Below, one piece after another: positions 6,036 through 38,093 of a DNA stretch of 64,000 bases (within the stretch, counting starts at the first letter, position 1; every line of letters starts with the position of its first letter). The notes beneath the pieces were generated by a model that saw only the letters and a list, made by a program, of their open reading frames with translations, ran no database searches and had not been told where the DNA came from. The position numbers and the translations under genes were made by a program. This DNA is from Frankineae bacterium MT45. Its GTDB lineage: Bacteria > Actinomycetota > Actinomycetes > Mycobacteriales > Jatrophihabitantaceae. The stretch is from NCBI GenBank assembly GCA_900100325.1, contig LT629697.1:2229423-2293422 (forward strand), given 5' to 3'.

Positions 6036-7355
6036 GTGAGTTCAGTGCGCAGCTGGCAGAACTGGGCGGGCAATCAGCGGGCCGAGGTCGTGAATCTGGT
6101 GAGCGTGGAGAGCGCGGATCAGCTCAGCGAAGCGGTCGCCCGCGGTGCCGCCGCCGGCACCCGGCTGCGTCCGATCGGGTCAGGCCACTCCTTCACTGGC
6201 ATCGGCCGTCCCGAACAGGTGCAGCTGAAGATGGACGCCTACGCCGGCATCGTCGACCTGCAGCGCGACACTGGGCTGGTCAAGGTCCGGGCTGGGACGT
6301 CGCTGCACCAGCTCAATCGGGACCTGGCCGCGGAGGGGATGGCCCTCACCAATCTGGGGGACATCGATGTACAGACCGTGGCCGGTGCCGTCTCGACCGG
6401 GACGCACGGCACGGGTCTGCGTTTCGGGGGTATCGCGACCCAGATCCGCGGGCTGGACCTCGTGCAGCCGGACGGTTCGACGCTCACCTGCTCTGCGACT
6501 GAGAACGCCGATGTCTTCACGCACGCCCGGGTCGGGTTGGGGGCGCTTGGCGTCATCTCCACCGTCACGCTGCAGGCCGAACCGCTCTTCGCGCTACGGG
6601 CGGTGGAGGGGCCGATGCGGTTGGGCGACGTCTTCGAGCAGTTGGACGAGCTCGTCGAGGGGACCGACCACTTCGAGTTCTACTGGTTCCCGCACACCGA
6701 TCGCACGCTGACCAAACGCAATACCCGGCTGCCGGTGACCGACGGCCTGCATCCGCTGACGGGGCGGCGCCGCTGGTGGGACGACGAGTTCATGGCGAAC
6801 AACGTCTTCGGAGCCATCATCGCCACCGGGCGACGCCTCCCGGCCACTGTTCGTACTTTCAACGGCATCGCCTCCCGAGCCCTCGGCGCCCGGGAGTTCA
6901 CCGATCTCTCTTATCGGGTCTTCGCCTCGGTGCGCCGGGTTCGCTTCGTCGAGATGGAGTACGCCGTCCCCCGCGAGGCGCTGGAGCAGGTACTCACCGA
7001 ACTCGACGTGACGATCGAGCGCAGCGGCTGGCGCATCGCGTTCCCGGTCGAGGTGCGAGTGGCGGCGGCCGACGACATCCCGCTCTCGACGGCCTACCAG
7101 CGCGAGAGCGCCTACATCGCGATTCACCTGCCGGTCGGGGTCGAGTATGACCAGTATTTCCAGGCGATGGAGGCGATCGCGGCCGCCGTCGGTGGGCGTC
7201 CGCATTGGGGCAAGATGCACTACCTGGACGCGGCCGCCCTGCGCACCCGCTACCCACGCTTCGACGAGTTCGTGGCCCTGCGCAACCGTCTCGACCCGAC
7301 GGGAATCTTCAGCAACCGCTACCTGGAGCGCGTGCTCGGACCGCTGCCCGGCTGA
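6036..7355 (+). CDS. D-arabinono-1,4-lactone/L-gulonolactone oxidase-type FAD enzyme
   Basis: Flavoprotein of 439 residues in the vanillyl-alcohol-oxidase superfamily. The N-terminal FAD domain has RLRPIGSGHSFTG (His51 at the usual flavin-linking position) and GTHGTGLRFGG; the C-terminal ALO domain ends with HWGKMHYLD (about residues 390-398) and LDPTGIFSNRYLERVLG. Mycobacterial gulonolactone dehydrogenase has the same layout and size. It oxidises sugar-1,4-lactones, giving ascorbate-like products. The GTG start has AGGAAAGGAAG upstream. It is often seen near the PLP aldolase family in actinobacteria, which fits the cassette here. Confidence 0.88.
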   Translation: MSSVRSWQNWAGNQRAEVVNLVSVESADQLSEAVARGAAAGTRLRPIGSGHSFTGIGRPEQVQLKMDAYAGIVDLQRDTGLVKVRAGTSLHQLNRDLAAEGMALTNLGDIDVQTVAGAVSTGTHGTGLRFGGIATQIRGLDLVQPDGSTLTCSATENADVFTHARVGLGALGVISTVTLQAEPLFALRAVEGPMRLGDVFEQLDELVEGTDHFEFYWFPHTDRTLTKRNTRLPVTDGLHPLTGRRRWWDDEFMANNVFGAIIATGRRLPATVRTFNGIASRALGAREFTDLSYRVFASVRRVRFVEMEYAVPREALEQVLTELDVTIERSGWRIAFPVEVRVAAADDIPLSTAYQRESAYIAIHLPVGVEYDQYFQAMEAIAAAVGGRPHWGKMHYLDAAALRTRYPRFDEFVALRNRLDPTGIFSNRYLERVLGPLPG

Positions 7356-28085: not shown

Positions 28086-28091
28086 TAAACT
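28086..28091 (+). promoter_or_regulatory. -10 element (TAAACT) of a leaderless hisD-hisC transcript
   Basis: TAAACT ends 6 nt before the GTG start, so transcription would begin at or next to the start codon. No Shine-Dalgarno is present. Confidence 0.5.
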
Positions 28092-28097
28092 GGCAGC

Positions 28098-30539
28098 GTG
28101 CTGCGCCGATTGGACCTCACCACCTCCGCTCCCGCCGATCTTCGGCGTGTCCTGCCACGGGCAAAAGTCGACGTGGCGGCTGCGATGGCGGTGGTCGAAC
28201 CCGTCGTGAACGCGGTGAGCGAGCACGGCTATGCAGCTGCGCGCGACGCGACACGGCGCTTCGACGGCGTTGACGTCGCCGAGCCCCGGGTTGCCCGGGA
28301 TGCGCTGCGGGCGGCCGCCGATCAGCTCGACCCGCAGGTCCGCGACGCACTGGTCGAGTCGATCCGGCGGGCCAAGATCGGGCACAACGCGCAGCGCCGG
28401 GAGGACGTCACCACCCAGGTCGTCCCCGGCGGCACGGTCACCGAGCGATGGATCGCCGTCGGACGGGTCGGCCTCTACGTTCCGGGCGGACTCGCGGTCT
28501 ACCCGTCGAGTGTCGTGATGAACGTGGTCCCGGCTCAGGTCGCCGGGGTGAATTCGATCGCCGTCTTCTCACCGGCCCAGAAGGAGTTCGGCGGCCTGCC
28601 GCACCCGACGATCCTGGCCGCCTGCGAACTTCTCGGGGTCGACGAGGTCTATGCGATCGGCGGCGCGCAGGCCATCGCCGTCGCCGCCTACGGTGACGCC
28701 GAACTCGGCATCGAGCCGGTCGACCTGGTCACCGGCCCCGGCAACATTTATGTCGCCGCGGCCAAGCGACTGCTCCGCGGCGTCATCGGCATCGACGCCG
28801 AGGCCGGCCCGACTGAGATCGCGATTCTGGCCGATGCCACGGCCGACCCGGTGCACGTCGCGGCTGATCTCATCAGCCAGGCCGAGCACGACCCGCTGGC
28901 CGCCTCCGTCCTGGTCACCGATTCGGCGCACCTCGCCGACCTCGTCGATGTGGAACTGAGCCGTCAGGTCGGCCTGACCAAGCACACCGACCGGATGACC
29001 GCCGCGCTGCAGGGTGAGCAGTCGGCCACCGTCATCGTCCGTGATCTCGAGCAGGGCCTGGCCGTCGTCGATGCCTACGCCGCCGAGCACCTTGAGGTGA
29101 TCACCCGCGATGCACGCCACTGGGCGGAGCGGGTGCGCAACGCCGGCTGTATCTTCGTCGGCCCGGATGCGCCGGTGTCGCTGGGTGACTACTGCGCCGG
29201 CTCCAATCACGTGCTCCCCACCGGCTGCACCGCGCGACACGCCTCCGGGCTCTCGGTGCAGTCCTTCCTCAAGGGCGTACACCTCGTCGAGTACACCCAC
29301 GACGCACTCGTCGCGGCGGCGCCCTTCGTGCTCGCCCTGTCGAACGCCGAGGATCTCCCGGCCCACGGGGCGGCCGTCTCGGCCCGACTCACCGAGAGCG
29401 ACTCCACCGCTCCGGCGACGCCGGGCGACGCCAGCTACGACGTCCCGCTGCGCCCGGAGTTGCGCGGCGAGACGCCCTACGGCGCCCCACAGCTCGATGT
29501 CGCGGTGCAGCTGAACGTCAACGAGAACCCGTACGCCCCGTCGGCGCGCGTCGCCGAGGAGATGGCCGACGCCGTGCGCCGAGCCGCCGGTGAGCTGAAC
29601 CGCTACCCGGACCGGGACGCGGTCGCACTGCGGGACGACCTGGCCGCCTACCTCGGCCACGGCCTGACCGGCGCTCAGGTCTGGGCGGCGAACGGCTCGA
29701 ACGAGATCATGGTGCAGTTGCTGCAGGCCTTCGGTGGCCCCGGACGTACCGCCCTCTCCTTCGCTCCCACCTACTCCATGTACCCGGAGTACGCCCGGGA
29801 CACCCACACTCGCTGGGTGGTCGGACAGCGGGCCGAGGACTTCACCATCGAGCTGGATGCGGCGCTGGCCCTCATCGGCCGGGAGGCGCCCTCGGTGACG
29901 CTGCTCGCGTCGCCGAACAACCCGACCGGAACCGCCCTGCCGCTCCAGCGCATCGAGGCGATCTGCACCGCCGCGCAGGCCGTCGGTGGTGTCGTCGTCG
30001 TTGACGAGGCCTACGGAGAGTTCCGTCGGGCCGGGACGCCGAGCGCGCTGGAGTTACTGCCGCGCTTCCCTAATCTGGTCGTCACTCGCACCATGAGCAA
30101 GGCATTCGCGCTGGCCGGCGGCCGGCTGGGTTACCTGGCCGCCAGTACTGAGATCGTCGATGCGGTGCGCATCGTGCGGCTGCCGTACCACCTCTCGGCG
30201 GTGAGCCAGGCGGTGGCGCGAGTGGCCCTGGCCAACAGCTCCGAGCTTCTGGCTCGGGTGGACGAGCTTCGCACTACCCGTGACGAGACGGCGGCCTGGC
30301 TGCGCTCAGTCGGATTGACGGCCGCCGATTCGGACGCGAACTTCGTCCTCTTCGGTGGCTTCGCGCCCGATCGTCATCAGGTCTGGCAGGAGCTGCTCGA
30401 TCGTGGCGTACTGATCCGCGAGGTCGGGCCACCGGGGTGGCTGCGGGTCTCGATCGGCACCCCGGCCGAGATGGCGAGGTTCCGGGACGCGCTGACAGCT
30501 GTGCTAAATCTTCCTATGAAACAAGGAGAAACTACGTGA
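28098..30539 (+). CDS. hisD-hisC: Fused histidinol dehydrogenase - histidinol-phosphate aminotransferase
   Basis: One continuous 813-codon frame joins two histidine enzymes. Residues 1-435 are HisD, the NAD-dependent oxidation of histidinol to histidine: SQAEHDPLA (zinc ligands Gln261, His264), AEHLE (catalytic Glu330, His331), [14 protein letters not shown]. After a linker of about 13 residues rich in Ala/Thr/Pro, residues 449-813 are HisC, the PLP aminotransferase: [16 protein letters not shown], and Schiff-base Lys668 in [16 protein letters not shown]. No stop codon or internal ATG/GTG lies at the junction. In most actinobacteria these are two adjacent overlapping genes. The stop overlaps hisB (GTGA). 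Confidence 0.93.
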
Positions 30540-31132
30540 GCGAGCGTATCGGTCGGGTCGACCGCACCACCTCTGAGACGAAGGTGCTGGTCGAGATCAA
30601 CCTCGACGGAACCGGCTCCACCGACGTCTCCACCGGGGTCGGCTTCTACGACCACATGCTCACGTCCTTCGGAAAGCACGGGCTATTCGACCTGCGCGTC
30701 CAGGTGGAGGGCGACACGCACATCGACGCCCACCACACGGTGGAAGATGCCGCGATCGCCCTCGGTCAGGCCTTCGCCCAGGCCGCCGGTGAGAAGCGGG
30801 GTATCCGACGCTTCGGTGACTCAGTTATACCGATGGATGAGGCGCTGGTACAGGCCGCCGTCGACCTCTCCGGCCGTCCTTACCTGGTGCACCGCGAACC
30901 CGACGGCGCTCCGCCGACCATCGGCCCGGACTACGCCACCACGCTCACCCGGCACGTCTTCGAGTCCTTCACCTATCACGCGGCGATTGCCCTGCACGTC
31001 ACCGTTCATGGGGGGCGGGATTGGCACCACATCACCGAGGCGCAGTACAAGGCCGTCGCCCGGGCGCTACGGGCCGCGGCCGAGATCGACCCGCGGGTGC
31101 AGGGGATTCCCTCGACGAAGGGCGTGCTCTGA
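30536..31132 (+). CDS. hisB: Imidazoleglycerol-phosphate dehydratase
   Basis: Monofunctional IGPD of 198 residues, histidine step 6. It has the two duplicated metal motifs ([12 protein letters not shown] and [15 protein letters not shown]). GTG at 30536 overlaps the hisD-hisC stop (GTGA), with AAGGAGAAA a few bases upstream; the frame extends further upstream, but the IGPD fold begins at [15 protein letters not shown]. Its stop overlaps the hisH start. Confidence 0.95.
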
Positions 31133-31731
31133 AGCGCGTCGTCGTCCTCGACTACGGATCCGGCAACCTGCACTCGGCCTACCGGGCGCTGGAGCGGGTC
31201 GGGGCGCAGGTCTCGGTCACCGCTGAACTGGATGCGGCCGTCGAGGCCGACGGGTTGGTTGTCCCGGGCGTTGGTGCGTTCGCGGCCTGCATGGCCGGCC
31301 TGGAGGCGGTGAATGCCCGAGAAATACTGCAGAAACGGATCGCGTCCGGGCGCCCCGTCCTCGGCATCTGCGTCGGTATGCAGGTGCTCTTCAGTGCGGG
31401 CATCGAGCACGGGATCGAGTCTGAGGGTCTCGGCGTGCTCGACGGTCGCGTCGAACTGCTGCAGGCGCCGATCCTTCCGCACATGGGTTGGAACACGATC
31501 ACCCCGCCGGCCGGTTCGGTGCTCTTCGCCGGCCTCGACCCGCAGACCCGCTTCTACTTCGTGCACTCGTACGCCGTTCACGACACCGCTGGGCTTGTCA
31601 CGACGGCCCATCACGGTGAGGATTTCGTGGCTGCGGTTGAGCACGGAGTGGTCAGCGCAACCCAGTTCCACCCGGAGAAGTCGGCCGATGCCGGTGCCGT
31701 CGTGCTGAGTAACTGGCTGGCCACCCTGTGA
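31129..31731 (+). CDS. hisH: Imidazole glycerol phosphate synthase, glutamine amidotransferase subunit
   Basis: Class I glutaminase that feeds ammonia to HisF. The 200-residue protein has [19 protein letters not shown] at the start, nucleophile Cys81 in LGICVGMQ, and the His/Glu pair in TQFHPEKS (about 181 and 183). The only sensible start is CTG at 31129, overlapping the hisB stop as CTGA and preceded by GAAGGG 7 nt upstream. No ATG, GTG or TTG exists in this frame between 31021 and the start of family similarity; an ATG at 31021 would add 36 unrelated residues inside hisB. Confidence 0.9.
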
Positions 31732-32158: not shown

Positions 32159-32878
32159 ATGAGTCTCGTCCTACTTCCGGCCGTCGATGTCGCCGACGGA
32201 GCCGCCGTGCGTCTGGTGCAGGGGGAGGCCGGCAGTGAAACCTCCTACGGCGATCCGCTGGAGGCGGCCCTGACCTGGCAGCGCGATGGCGCCGAGTGGA
32301 TCCATCTCGTCGACCTCGACGCCGCCTTCGGCCGTGGCTCCAACCGCGAGATGCTGGCCGCGGTCGTGGCCAAGCTCGACGTCGCGGTCGAGCTCTCCGG
32401 GGGTATCCGGGACGACGCCTCGCTGGAGGCGGCCCTGGCCACCGGCGCCGCACGCGTGAATCTCGGCACCGCCGCCCTGGAGTCCCCGGACTGGGTGCGG
32501 TCGGCCATCGCCCGGCACGGCGACAAGATCGCTGTCGGGCTCGACGTACGCGGGACCACCCTCGCCGCCCGTGGCTGGACCGAGTCTGGCGGTGACCTCT
32601 ACGAGACGCTGGCCCGGCTGGATGCCGACGGCTGCGCGCGCTACGTGGTCACCGACGTGCACCGCGACGGGACGCTCACCGGCCCGAACCTGGAGTTGCT
32701 GCGGAATGTCTGCGCGGCCACCGACAAGCCGGTCGTGGCCAGTGGCGGGGTCTCGTCGCTGGCAGACTTGCAGGCCATCGCGGCGCTGACCGACCTCGGG
32801 GTCGAGGGGGCGATCGTCGGTAAGGCGCTCTACGCCGGCGCCTTCACGCTGCCGGAGGCGCTCGCCTCAGTCCGCTGA
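32159..32878 (+). CDS. priA: Bifunctional isomerase PriA (HisA and TrpF activities)
   Basis: TIM-barrel isomerase of 239 residues that converts ProFAR to PRFAR in histidine synthesis; in actinobacteria it usually also isomerises phosphoribosyl anthranilate for tryptophan. Features are [18 protein letters not shown] (catalytic Asp10, Arg18), [18 protein letters not shown] with the Arg/Trp pair used in PriA substrate switching, and [14 protein letters not shown] with the second catalytic Asp. No separate trpF lies in the trp block at 38-45 kb, which supports the dual role. AAAGGCAG precedes the ATG. The last 12 nt overlap the converging hydrolase gene. Confidence 0.93.
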
Positions 32879-33559
32879 GCGCCGAGTGCGGATCGCCTCG
32901 AAGAAGATCTGCGCGATTGCGGCGTAGCCGCGCTCGTTGGGGTGGAAGTGATCGGCGGCCAGCTTCCCCCGCCACCTCGTTGTCCGGGGTTGTCGCATGT
33001 CGGCCAGCGCCAGCTGCCCGGCCGCCGCGCCCTCGCGGATGAGACGGTCGATCTCATTGGCGGCGCGACGAGGGTTGGGCAGGTTCGACACCACCGAACC
33101 CTTCGGCAGCGCGCGCAAGAGTTCGGCAAAGCCGGCCGGCAGCGCATCACGGTAGCGACGCCGCACGAGGTCGTTGCTGCCGATCAATACGGTGACCAGC
33201 GCCGGGTCTATGCCCTGCTGCTGCAGACCCTGGAGGGCAGGCAGCTGCCGTCGCAGGACATCCTCGACCCGGCCGCCGCTCATCGATAGGTTCACTACGC
33301 GGTACGACTCGCCGGCATCTTCCAGCAGTCGCTGGGCTTGGCCGACCCAGCCCTGCCCGGGACCGGGCGCGCCGATGCCCTGCGTCATCGAGTCGCCGAG
33401 GGCCACCCAGAGCGGTGTCTCGACCCCGTCCGCGAGCACCGCTCGGTTCTGCTGCTCCCAGTACGCGGCGAACGGAGCGACCTGGCCCTGCACCGTGCGC
33501 ACGCCCGGGAGCAGCCGGGACGCGGCCGTCAGGAACGGTCCGGTTGGGCGGCCGCTCAT
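32867..33559 (-). CDS. SGNH/GDSL-type hydrolase
   Basis: Hydrolase of about 230 residues with the SGNH blocks: block [13 protein letters not shown] (nucleophile Ser), block II around [12 protein letters not shown] (Gly), block III IGSNDL (Asn), and block [11 protein letters not shown] (Asp/His). It is probably an esterase or lipase acting in the cytoplasm, as no signal peptide is seen. ATG 33559 is preferred; the frame reaches a TTG at 33655 that would overlap the hisF start. It lies antisense between priA and hisF, so it interrupts the his gene string. Confidence 0.85.
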
Positions 33560-33654
33560 GTTCGAGTAGTCGAAGTGTGGTCCGGTGATCGTCTTCCCCG
33601 TTCTGGCGTACCGCTGCGACCTTATGCGTTCGCACCGGATGGGACACTTCAACA

Positions 33655-34434
33655 ATGTCTGTAGCAGTGCGAGTAATCCCGTGTCTGGACGTCGACGCCG
33701 GCCGGGTGGTGAAGGGTGTCAACTTCGCTGATCTGCGTGACGCCGGCGATCCGGTCGAACTGGCTCGCCGCTACAACGAGGAGGGCGCCGACGAGCTGAC
33801 CTTCCTCGACATCACCGCCTCCTCTTCGCAACGGCAGACCACCTTCGAGATGGTGCGTCGCACCGCGGAGCAGGTTTTCATCCCGTTGACCGTCGGCGGC
33901 GGGGTGCGTTCGGTCGAGGACGTCGACGCGCTGCTGCGAGCCGGGGCCGACAAGGTGGGCGTCAACACCGCCGCGATCGCCCGTCCCGAGTTGCTGCGCG
34001 AGATCGCCCACCGCTTCGGCAACCAGGTGCTCGTCCTCTCCGTGGATGCCCGGCGTGTCGTCCCCGGCTCGGGCTCGGCTCCAACCCCGAGCGGCTTCGA
34101 GGTCACCACTCACGGCGGTCGGCGCGGCACCGGCATCGACGCCATCGATTGGGCGACTCGGGCCGCGGAACTAGGGGCCGGCGAGATCCTGCTCAACTCG
34201 ATGGACGCCGACGGAACCAAGCACGGCTACGACCTGGAACTGATCACGCTGGCCCGTGCTGCGGTCGGCGTCCCGGTGATCGCCAGCGGGGGAGCAGGTG
34301 ACGTCGCGCACTTTCTTCCGGCCGTGGAGGCGGGGGCTGACGCGGTTCTGGCCGCTAGTGTCTTTCACTTCGGGCAGATCCGGATCGGCGAGGTGAAAGC
34401 GGCGCTTCGCAGCGGCGGAGTTCCGACGCGCTGA
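33655..34434 (+). CDS. hisF: Imidazole glycerol phosphate synthase cyclase subunit
   Basis: TIM barrel of 259 residues that forms imidazole glycerol phosphate and AICAR using ammonia from HisH. It has [17 protein letters not shown] (catalytic Asp12), [16 protein letters not shown] (second catalytic Asp), and [21 protein letters not shown] start; the weak upstream region and the divergent hydrolase suggest its own promoter in 33560-33654. Confidence 0.96.
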
Positions 34435-37672: not shown

Positions 37673-37733
37673 TCGTCGCCGACCGGATACCGCGCGGTAA
37701 ACCGAGTTGGCCGGAGCAGGCAGAATTGACGCC

Positions 37734-38093
37734 ATGAACACGCCCTCAGCCCTTGACCCGGCGATCGCGGCACGGTTGAAACGTGACGCCGCCGGCCTCG
37801 TCGTCGCGGTCGTGCAGCAGTACGACACCGACGAGGTCCTGATGGTCGGTTGGATGGACGACGAGGCTCTGCATCGCACGCTCACCACCGGCCGCGCCAC
37901 CTACTGGTCACGCTCGAGGGGCGAGTACTGGGTGAAGGGCGACACGTCCGGGCACGCCCAGTACGTCAAGTCGGTGGCGCTGGACTGCGACGCCGACTCG
38001 CTGCTGGTCAAGGTCGATCAGATCGGCGCCGCCTGCCACACCGGTGATCGGACCTGCTTCGACGCCGGCGTACTGCAGGTGAGCAGCCAGTGA
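37734..38093 (+). CDS. hisI: Phosphoribosyl-AMP cyclohydrolase
   Basis: Monofunctional HisI of 119 residues, histidine step 3. Conserved blocks are [30 protein letters not shown], and the metal-binding cysteine motifs [11 protein letters not shown] and [10 protein letters not shown]. There is no fused HisE domain, as usual in actinobacteria. ATG 37734 begins the family similarity. Its stop overlaps the trpE start (GTGA), tying a his gene to the trp operon. Confidence 0.94.

Follow-up and report, generated by a model that had tools for sequence, protein, structure and literature searches.

In histidine biosynthesis HisC performs step seven and HisD performs steps nine and ten, with step eight, that of HisN, lying between them, as presented in the accessible part of PMC8305728. 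Within a stretch of 64,000 nucleotides from Frankineae bacterium MT45 (contig LT629697.1, positions 2,229,423 to 2,293,422 of the forward strand; hereafter the window) both enzymes appear to be encoded by one uninterrupted reading frame. This raises the question of whether hisD and hisC are really fused there or were merged by a sequencing slip, and of what the joining of two enzymes of non-consecutive steps would mean.

Structure of the Fused Gene and Its Predicted Product

The frame occupies positions 28098–30539 of the forward strand in a 4.23-Mb single-contig genome, begins with GTG, ends with the stop codon TGA at 30537–30539, and reads through 813 codons comprising a whole HisD, a linker, and a whole HisC, with a calculated product mass of 85.9 kDa. 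The fusion of HisD and HisC in one 813-codon gene, which was proposed in an earlier note on this DNA, is confirmed by the open reading frame, by Pfam and NCBIfam matches, and by a second genome of the genus. The histidinol dehydrogenase (HisD) part covers codons 1–431 (28098–29390, forward strand) and is delimited by the Pfam family Histidinol_dh (PF00815; residues 21–431, profile positions 3–411 of 411, 466.8 bits against a cut-off of 27), by NCBIfam TIGR00069 (435.3 bits, above the cut-off of 243.8), and by alignment to a solved HisD chain over residues 32–431. The histidinol-phosphate aminotransferase (HisC) part covers codons 448–813 (29439–30536, forward strand) and matches NCBIfam NF002877 at residues 447–804 (576.4 bits, above the cut-off of 409) and Pfam Aminotran_1_2 at residues 470–799. 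It aligns to solved HisC chains starting with its first residue, and a conserved N-terminal block of 15 residues aligns with that of separate HisCs. The Pfam search matched no third domain in the fused protein.

The catalytic residues named in the earlier note were found at the expected motifs. Glu330, His331, Gln261, His264, Asp364, and His423 of the HisD part occupy columns common with the solved HisD chain 4g07, the last four being taken here as the zinc ligands, and Lys668, presumably the PLP lysine of HisC, lies within a TMSKAF motif. Both halves score above the cut-offs of the HisD and HisC families and are predicted enzymes, and by these sequence signs the fused enzyme looks to be a working one.

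Between the two parts lies a linker of codons 432–447 (29391–29438, forward strand), so that the spacer estimated before at about 13 residues does exist but is somewhat longer, at 16. S, T, A, P, and D are frequent in it, and each of the two genus genomes has 16 linker codons, 7 of the 16 residues being different; the linker changes freely, yet its length is kept. The linker contains neither a stop nor an in-frame ATG or GTG, and among codons 425–485 the only in-frame ATG, GTG, or TTG codons are TTG 455 and GTG 470 in the window gene and TTG 470 and GTG 474 in the congener; the absence of a stop and of ATG/GTG from the junction, claimed previously, is thereby borne out.

An AlphaFold2 model of the fusion, built from a 35-row alignment in which the leading LP dipeptide of most separate HisCs had been assigned by the aligner to the HisD part, reached a mean pLDDT of 78.2. 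Values below 50 were found at the junction (433–449) and also at residues 9–26, 233–239, 361–365, 367–384, 460–464, and 809–813, and the low stretch 361–384 contains Asp364. The model agrees with two folded parts linked by a flexible spacer, while the arrangement of the parts, the oligomer, and the active sites are not readable from it because of the pTM of 0.48 and these low-pLDDT stretches.

Distribution in the Genus and Family

The sole other genome of the genus examined (G001), also a single contig, carries the same 813-codon fusion, 92% identical to that of the window and aligned with zero gap columns; the search of related genomes suggested in the earlier note has thus returned the fusion in the congener. 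Two clean genes, which that note had envisaged in relatives, are indeed present in the family, with hisC in another frame, but the congener is fused. The family search comprised 24 genomes, two of them the genus genomes with the fusion, and in 17 of the 22 others hisD and hisC are separate and adjacent. At 15 of these 17 loci the hisD stop shares a 4-nt RTGA overlap with a start codon of the hisC frame; at the other two (L007 and L008) hisC lies in a different frame and the RTGA overlap is absent. As for the remaining genomes, the end of hisD lies about 790 nt from hisC in G007, the best hisC match of G022 is on a different contig, and in G009, G013, and G019 hisD, hisC, or both have no close match among the matches listed. 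The junction of L007 (the same locus as L053, JAICKR010000066) shows an ATGA overlap opening an 11-codon open reading frame that closes in a second ATGA, the latter being the likely hisC start.

The 17 adjacent separate loci have the same gene order as the window, and their products are 72–82% (HisD) and 67–77% (HisC) identical to those of the window, with the exception of L013, whose HisC is 57% identical. The difference is that the separate genes give two proteins, hisC being started at the overlap in 15 of the 17, whereas the window gene gives one. The exceptional locus L013 (G005, of the same family by taxonomy; HisD 75% identical) groups in the concatenated tree with L022 from another family, and a transfer or a mis-binned MAG contig is a possible cause.

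In a concatenated HisD and HisC tree of 41 loci the two fused genes (G000, the window's genome, and G001) grouped together with local support of 1.0 among unfused lineages, and the placement of the genus as sister to L011 was weak (local support 0.62). The simplest reading of these sequences would be a single fusion on the stem of the genus.

Selection on the Two Halves

Comparison of the two genomes revealed 17/9/153 changes at codon positions 1/2/3 in HisD (431 codons), 31/19/137 in HisC (357 codons), and 7/5/8 in the linker (16 codons), and the NG86 estimates were dN 0.031 and dS 0.630 for HisD (dN/dS about 0.05) and dN 0.068 and dS 0.730 for HisC (dN/dS about 0.09). Because of this distribution over codon positions and the low dN relative to dS, both halves are regarded as constrained, and the two-genome comparison indicates that purifying selection acts on both. 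The fusion is found in two of two genus genomes with purifying selection indicated on each half, as expected of a functional, lineage-fixed fusion. The mean identity of HisC to five outgroups is 60.9 and 60.3% in the genus and 63.5–65.8% in eight relatives, and in four other family members it is 60.2–60.8%, level with the genus; there may be a mild relaxation of HisC in the genus.

A substitute hisD or hisC elsewhere in the genome was also considered and rejected, since nothing above cut-off was found. There is one PF00815 match per genome and one HisC above the NF002877 cut-off per genome, the runners-up reaching 189 and 197 bits against the cut-off of 409, so that neither genus genome contains a second hisD or hisC above cut-off.

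Occurrence of Fusions in the Phylum

The fused protein was used as a query against sets of 101, 396, 394, 24, and 397 genomes (relatives, phylum, class, family, and order, respectively), which overlap and total 1108 different genomes of one phylum. Most of these genomes have both enzymes, and in the phylum search only 4 of 396 genomes gave no match whatsoever. Any fusion is expected near the top of the ranked matches, and stop-free matches across both domains were found only in G000, G001, and G497 among the matches listed for the 1108 genomes. Matches spanning both domains with at least one stop between them occurred in at least 7 (phylum), at least 10 (class), and at least 9 (order) genomes, G821 being present in both the class and the order sets. 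A contig scan of at least 579 relatives, from which 80 loci were retained, added two further open reads, namely, L049 (Scrofimicrobium canadense) and L033. The rule asserted in the earlier note, that most actinobacteria have separate and overlapping hisD and hisC, is upheld by the overlap at 15 of 17 adjacent family loci and by the rarity of fusions among the genomes searched.

The genes of G497 (L136) and Scrofimicrobium canadense (L049) have the same domain order as the window gene in one stop-free frame. Their HisD and HisC parts are about 61 and 57% (G497) and about 58 and 55% (S. canadense) identical to those of the window and their linkers are dissimilar, and because of this low identity and the dissimilar linkers the two fusions are most likely separate events. 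G497 is a MAG, 72% complete and the only genome of its family examined, and the S. canadense linker, known from one genome, holds a run of six G. Assignment of the G609 family as that of S. canadense itself was rejected, since the listed matches in its 85 genomes are only 48–61% identical, and no stop-free spanning match to the S. canadense protein is listed among these 85 genomes (those of G609, G1127, and G1123 all contain stops). Taken at the level of sequence, the fusion is not unique to the genus and is present in at least one other lineage, probably in two.

The apparent fusion of L033 (MAG chromosome CP059259.1, locus 7254–7282) was rejected owing to an ambiguous N in the junction, which reads as a normal GTGA overlap when this base is left out; it is likely an assembly artefact. 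The collection has 143 distinct loci with adjacent hisD and hisC, a set in which the search method favoured in-frame cases. Of these, 5 are open (L033 included), 79 show the RTGA overlap, in 41 a stop separates two genes that share one frame, and in 18 hisC is in another frame without the RTGA overlap; 17 duplicates, six loci lacking the full pair, and five whose genes are not adjacent were excluded from the count. The 41 same-frame loci with a stop in this enriched sample imply that few steps may separate the split and fused states. Two loci of the collection, L090 and L104, come from MAG contigs titled Bifidobacterium breve, and this label looks wrong: their HisD is about 65% identical to the query, compared with about 52% for L044 and L058, which are Bifidobacterium loci as well.

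The Surrounding his Cluster

Downstream of the fused gene the order is hisB, hisH, hisA/priA, hisF, hisI, and trpE, with other genes interspersed; these named genes are on the forward strand and each has an NCBIfam match above cut-off. The gene hisB (30536–31132; NF002110) is preceded by a Shine-Dalgarno-like AAGGAG (30523–30528, forward strand) within the 3′ end of the fused gene, and its start overlaps the fused-gene stop as GTGA (30536–30539). It is followed by hisH (31129–31731, start uncertain; TIGR01855, with 31132–31728 as the stretch searched), a bifunctional HisA-TrpF type hisA/priA (32159–32878; TIGR01919), hisF (33655–34434; TIGR00735), hisI (37707–38093; NF000768), and trpE (start at 38090; NF010086). 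At the homologous N-terminus of hisH (31129–31135) ATG, GTG, and TTG are absent, and CTG at 31129, which overlaps the hisB stop (CTGA), may be the start. A 4-nt overlap, GTGA, between hisI and trpE (38090–38093) links the his and trp genes. An open reading frame on the opposite strand (32867–33655) lies between hisA and hisF and reaches into both; it gave no NCBIfam match, and its motifs are presumably those of an SGNH-type esterase. No known RNA elements were found at gathering scores in 20000–45000.

Upstream of the fused gene a TAAACT hexamer ends 6 nt before the GTG start, and no Shine-Dalgarno-like sequence was seen in the same interval (28086–28100). The spacing of the hexamer and the lack of a Shine-Dalgarno-like sequence suggest that the transcript of the fused gene could be leaderless.

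Alternative Explanations

A slip of sequencing or assembly that deletes the hisD stop and merges two overlapping genes probably did occur at the same junction in L033, but in the genus it would need to hit both genomes, two single contigs with 92% protein identity and no indel between them, and to yield the identical frame each time. Such a slip is extremely improbable; since the congener carries the same frame, the fusion is an evolutionary change, and sequencing error was rejected as its cause. A different explanation accepts the single frame and supposes that the cell ends up with two enzymes all the same, either through proteolysis within the linker or through additional initiation of HisC at an internal codon. 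The S/T/A/P/D-rich, low-pLDDT linker speaks in favour of this view, as does codon 470, a candidate internal start that is GTG in the window gene and TTG in the congener. Against the internal start, a HisC begun at codon 470 or later loses the 18-residue block carried by the aligned separate HisCs, neither genome of the genus has GGAG in the 16 bases preceding codon 470, and the congener lacks a TTG at codon 455; two enzymes from this one frame are on balance unlikely.

Alternatively, one half might be in decay, with the fusion as a stage before one activity is lost and assumed by a paralogue. HisC does change slightly faster than HisD (dN 0.068 against 0.031), but its dN/dS of about 0.09, the intact Lys668, the family score above cut-off, and the lack of any other HisC above cut-off in either genome speak for a maintained enzyme, and decay can hardly be credited. 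Finally, the fusion could be a scaffold that recruits HisN, with histidinol-phosphate passed from HisC to HisN and on to HisD in a three-enzyme metabolon. HisC and HisD flank the HisN step, and the linker length is constant despite the changed residues, both in favour of such an assembly. Opposed to it are the position of the HisN gene (a match above the curated cut-off in both genomes, separated from the fusion by about 0.8 and 1.0 Mb), the lack of a third matched domain together with the low predicted order of the linker, and the presence of the fusion in only 3 of 1108 genomes among the matches listed, though most have both enzymes. A metabolon of this kind is therefore quite improbable; were it nevertheless real, the repeated natural HisD-HisC fusions would be footprints of a hidden HisC-HisN-HisD complex in other actinobacteria, which is just as doubtful.

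Origin and Significance of the Fusion

The preferred explanation, held with high confidence, is that the neighbouring genes hisD and hisC were truly fused at the level of the genus and would give a bifunctional 86-kDa protein, in which two enzymes are tethered 1:1 without direct channelling. To judge from the frames, an indel on the genus stem would have shifted the RTGA-overlap arrangement by a net +1 or −2 and set both genes in one frame; its site would be the variable sequence that connects the C-terminus of HisD to the conserved beginning of HisC. The two enzyme parts would fold independently, joined by a short flexible spacer. HisC is a homodimer. HisD is a homodimer in Salmonella and M. 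tuberculosis according to the available text of PMC3896937. If the parts pair in this way, the fused subunit would form homodimers or larger tethered assemblies. As long as the protein stays whole, one start would supply HisD and HisC at a fixed 1:1 ratio, and hisC would be freed from translation restart at the overlap, with the GTGA overlap of hisC and hisB retained.

Direct channelling between HisC and HisD is unlikely because HisN acts between both steps. The earlier remark that the steps are not consecutive and that channelling is not the simple explanation is supported by the encoding of HisN far away in both genomes. Most likely the fusion was nearly neutral at its origin and would have been kept because both parts are needed, so that fixation by drift or by a small benefit in supply is more likely than channelling.

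Gene fusions are well represented in the histidine pathway. In the accessible text of Fani et al. 2007 (PMC1963479) five are catalogued, namely, hisA/hisF, hisIE, hisHF (HIS7), hisNB, and hisIED (HIS4), in which his-pathway genes are likewise merged into one multi-domain enzyme; in that text hisC is not a partner in any of them and the hisD-hisC pair is absent. The portion of PMC10138114 at hand names fusions for hisD, N, B, H, F, I, and E, without hisC; fusions of other his genes are discussed in the available part of PMC8305728, and yeast his4 is cited in that of PMC1175970. For Archaea, the consulted sections of PMC11237513 report HisIE and HisA/F fusions and state that none of the HisIE-HisD type was detected. 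No description of a natural HisD-HisC fusion came up in the literature searched, a body of partly accessible texts with subscription journals mostly outside it. A laboratory-selected hisD-hisC fusion of Salmonella, produced by a boundary frameshift and giving a bifunctional product, was reportedly described by Yourno, Kohno, and Roth in 1970. It reportedly joined the same two genes in the same order; the Salmonella fusion was a laboratory mutation, whereas that of the window is natural, common to two species of the genus, and maintained under purifying selection.

In summary, the hisD-hisC gene is an uncommon form of a familiar gene-fusion event and not a new system, and hisD-hisC is a new pairing. 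With it the textbook example of pathways evolving through gene fusion gains a gene (hisC) and a pair (hisD-hisC), and the laboratory fusion reported for Salmonella in 1970 appears to have a counterpart in nature. Because its enzymes are non-consecutive, the fusion helps to tell a fixed ratio or drift from channelling as the reason why genes of this pathway become joined.
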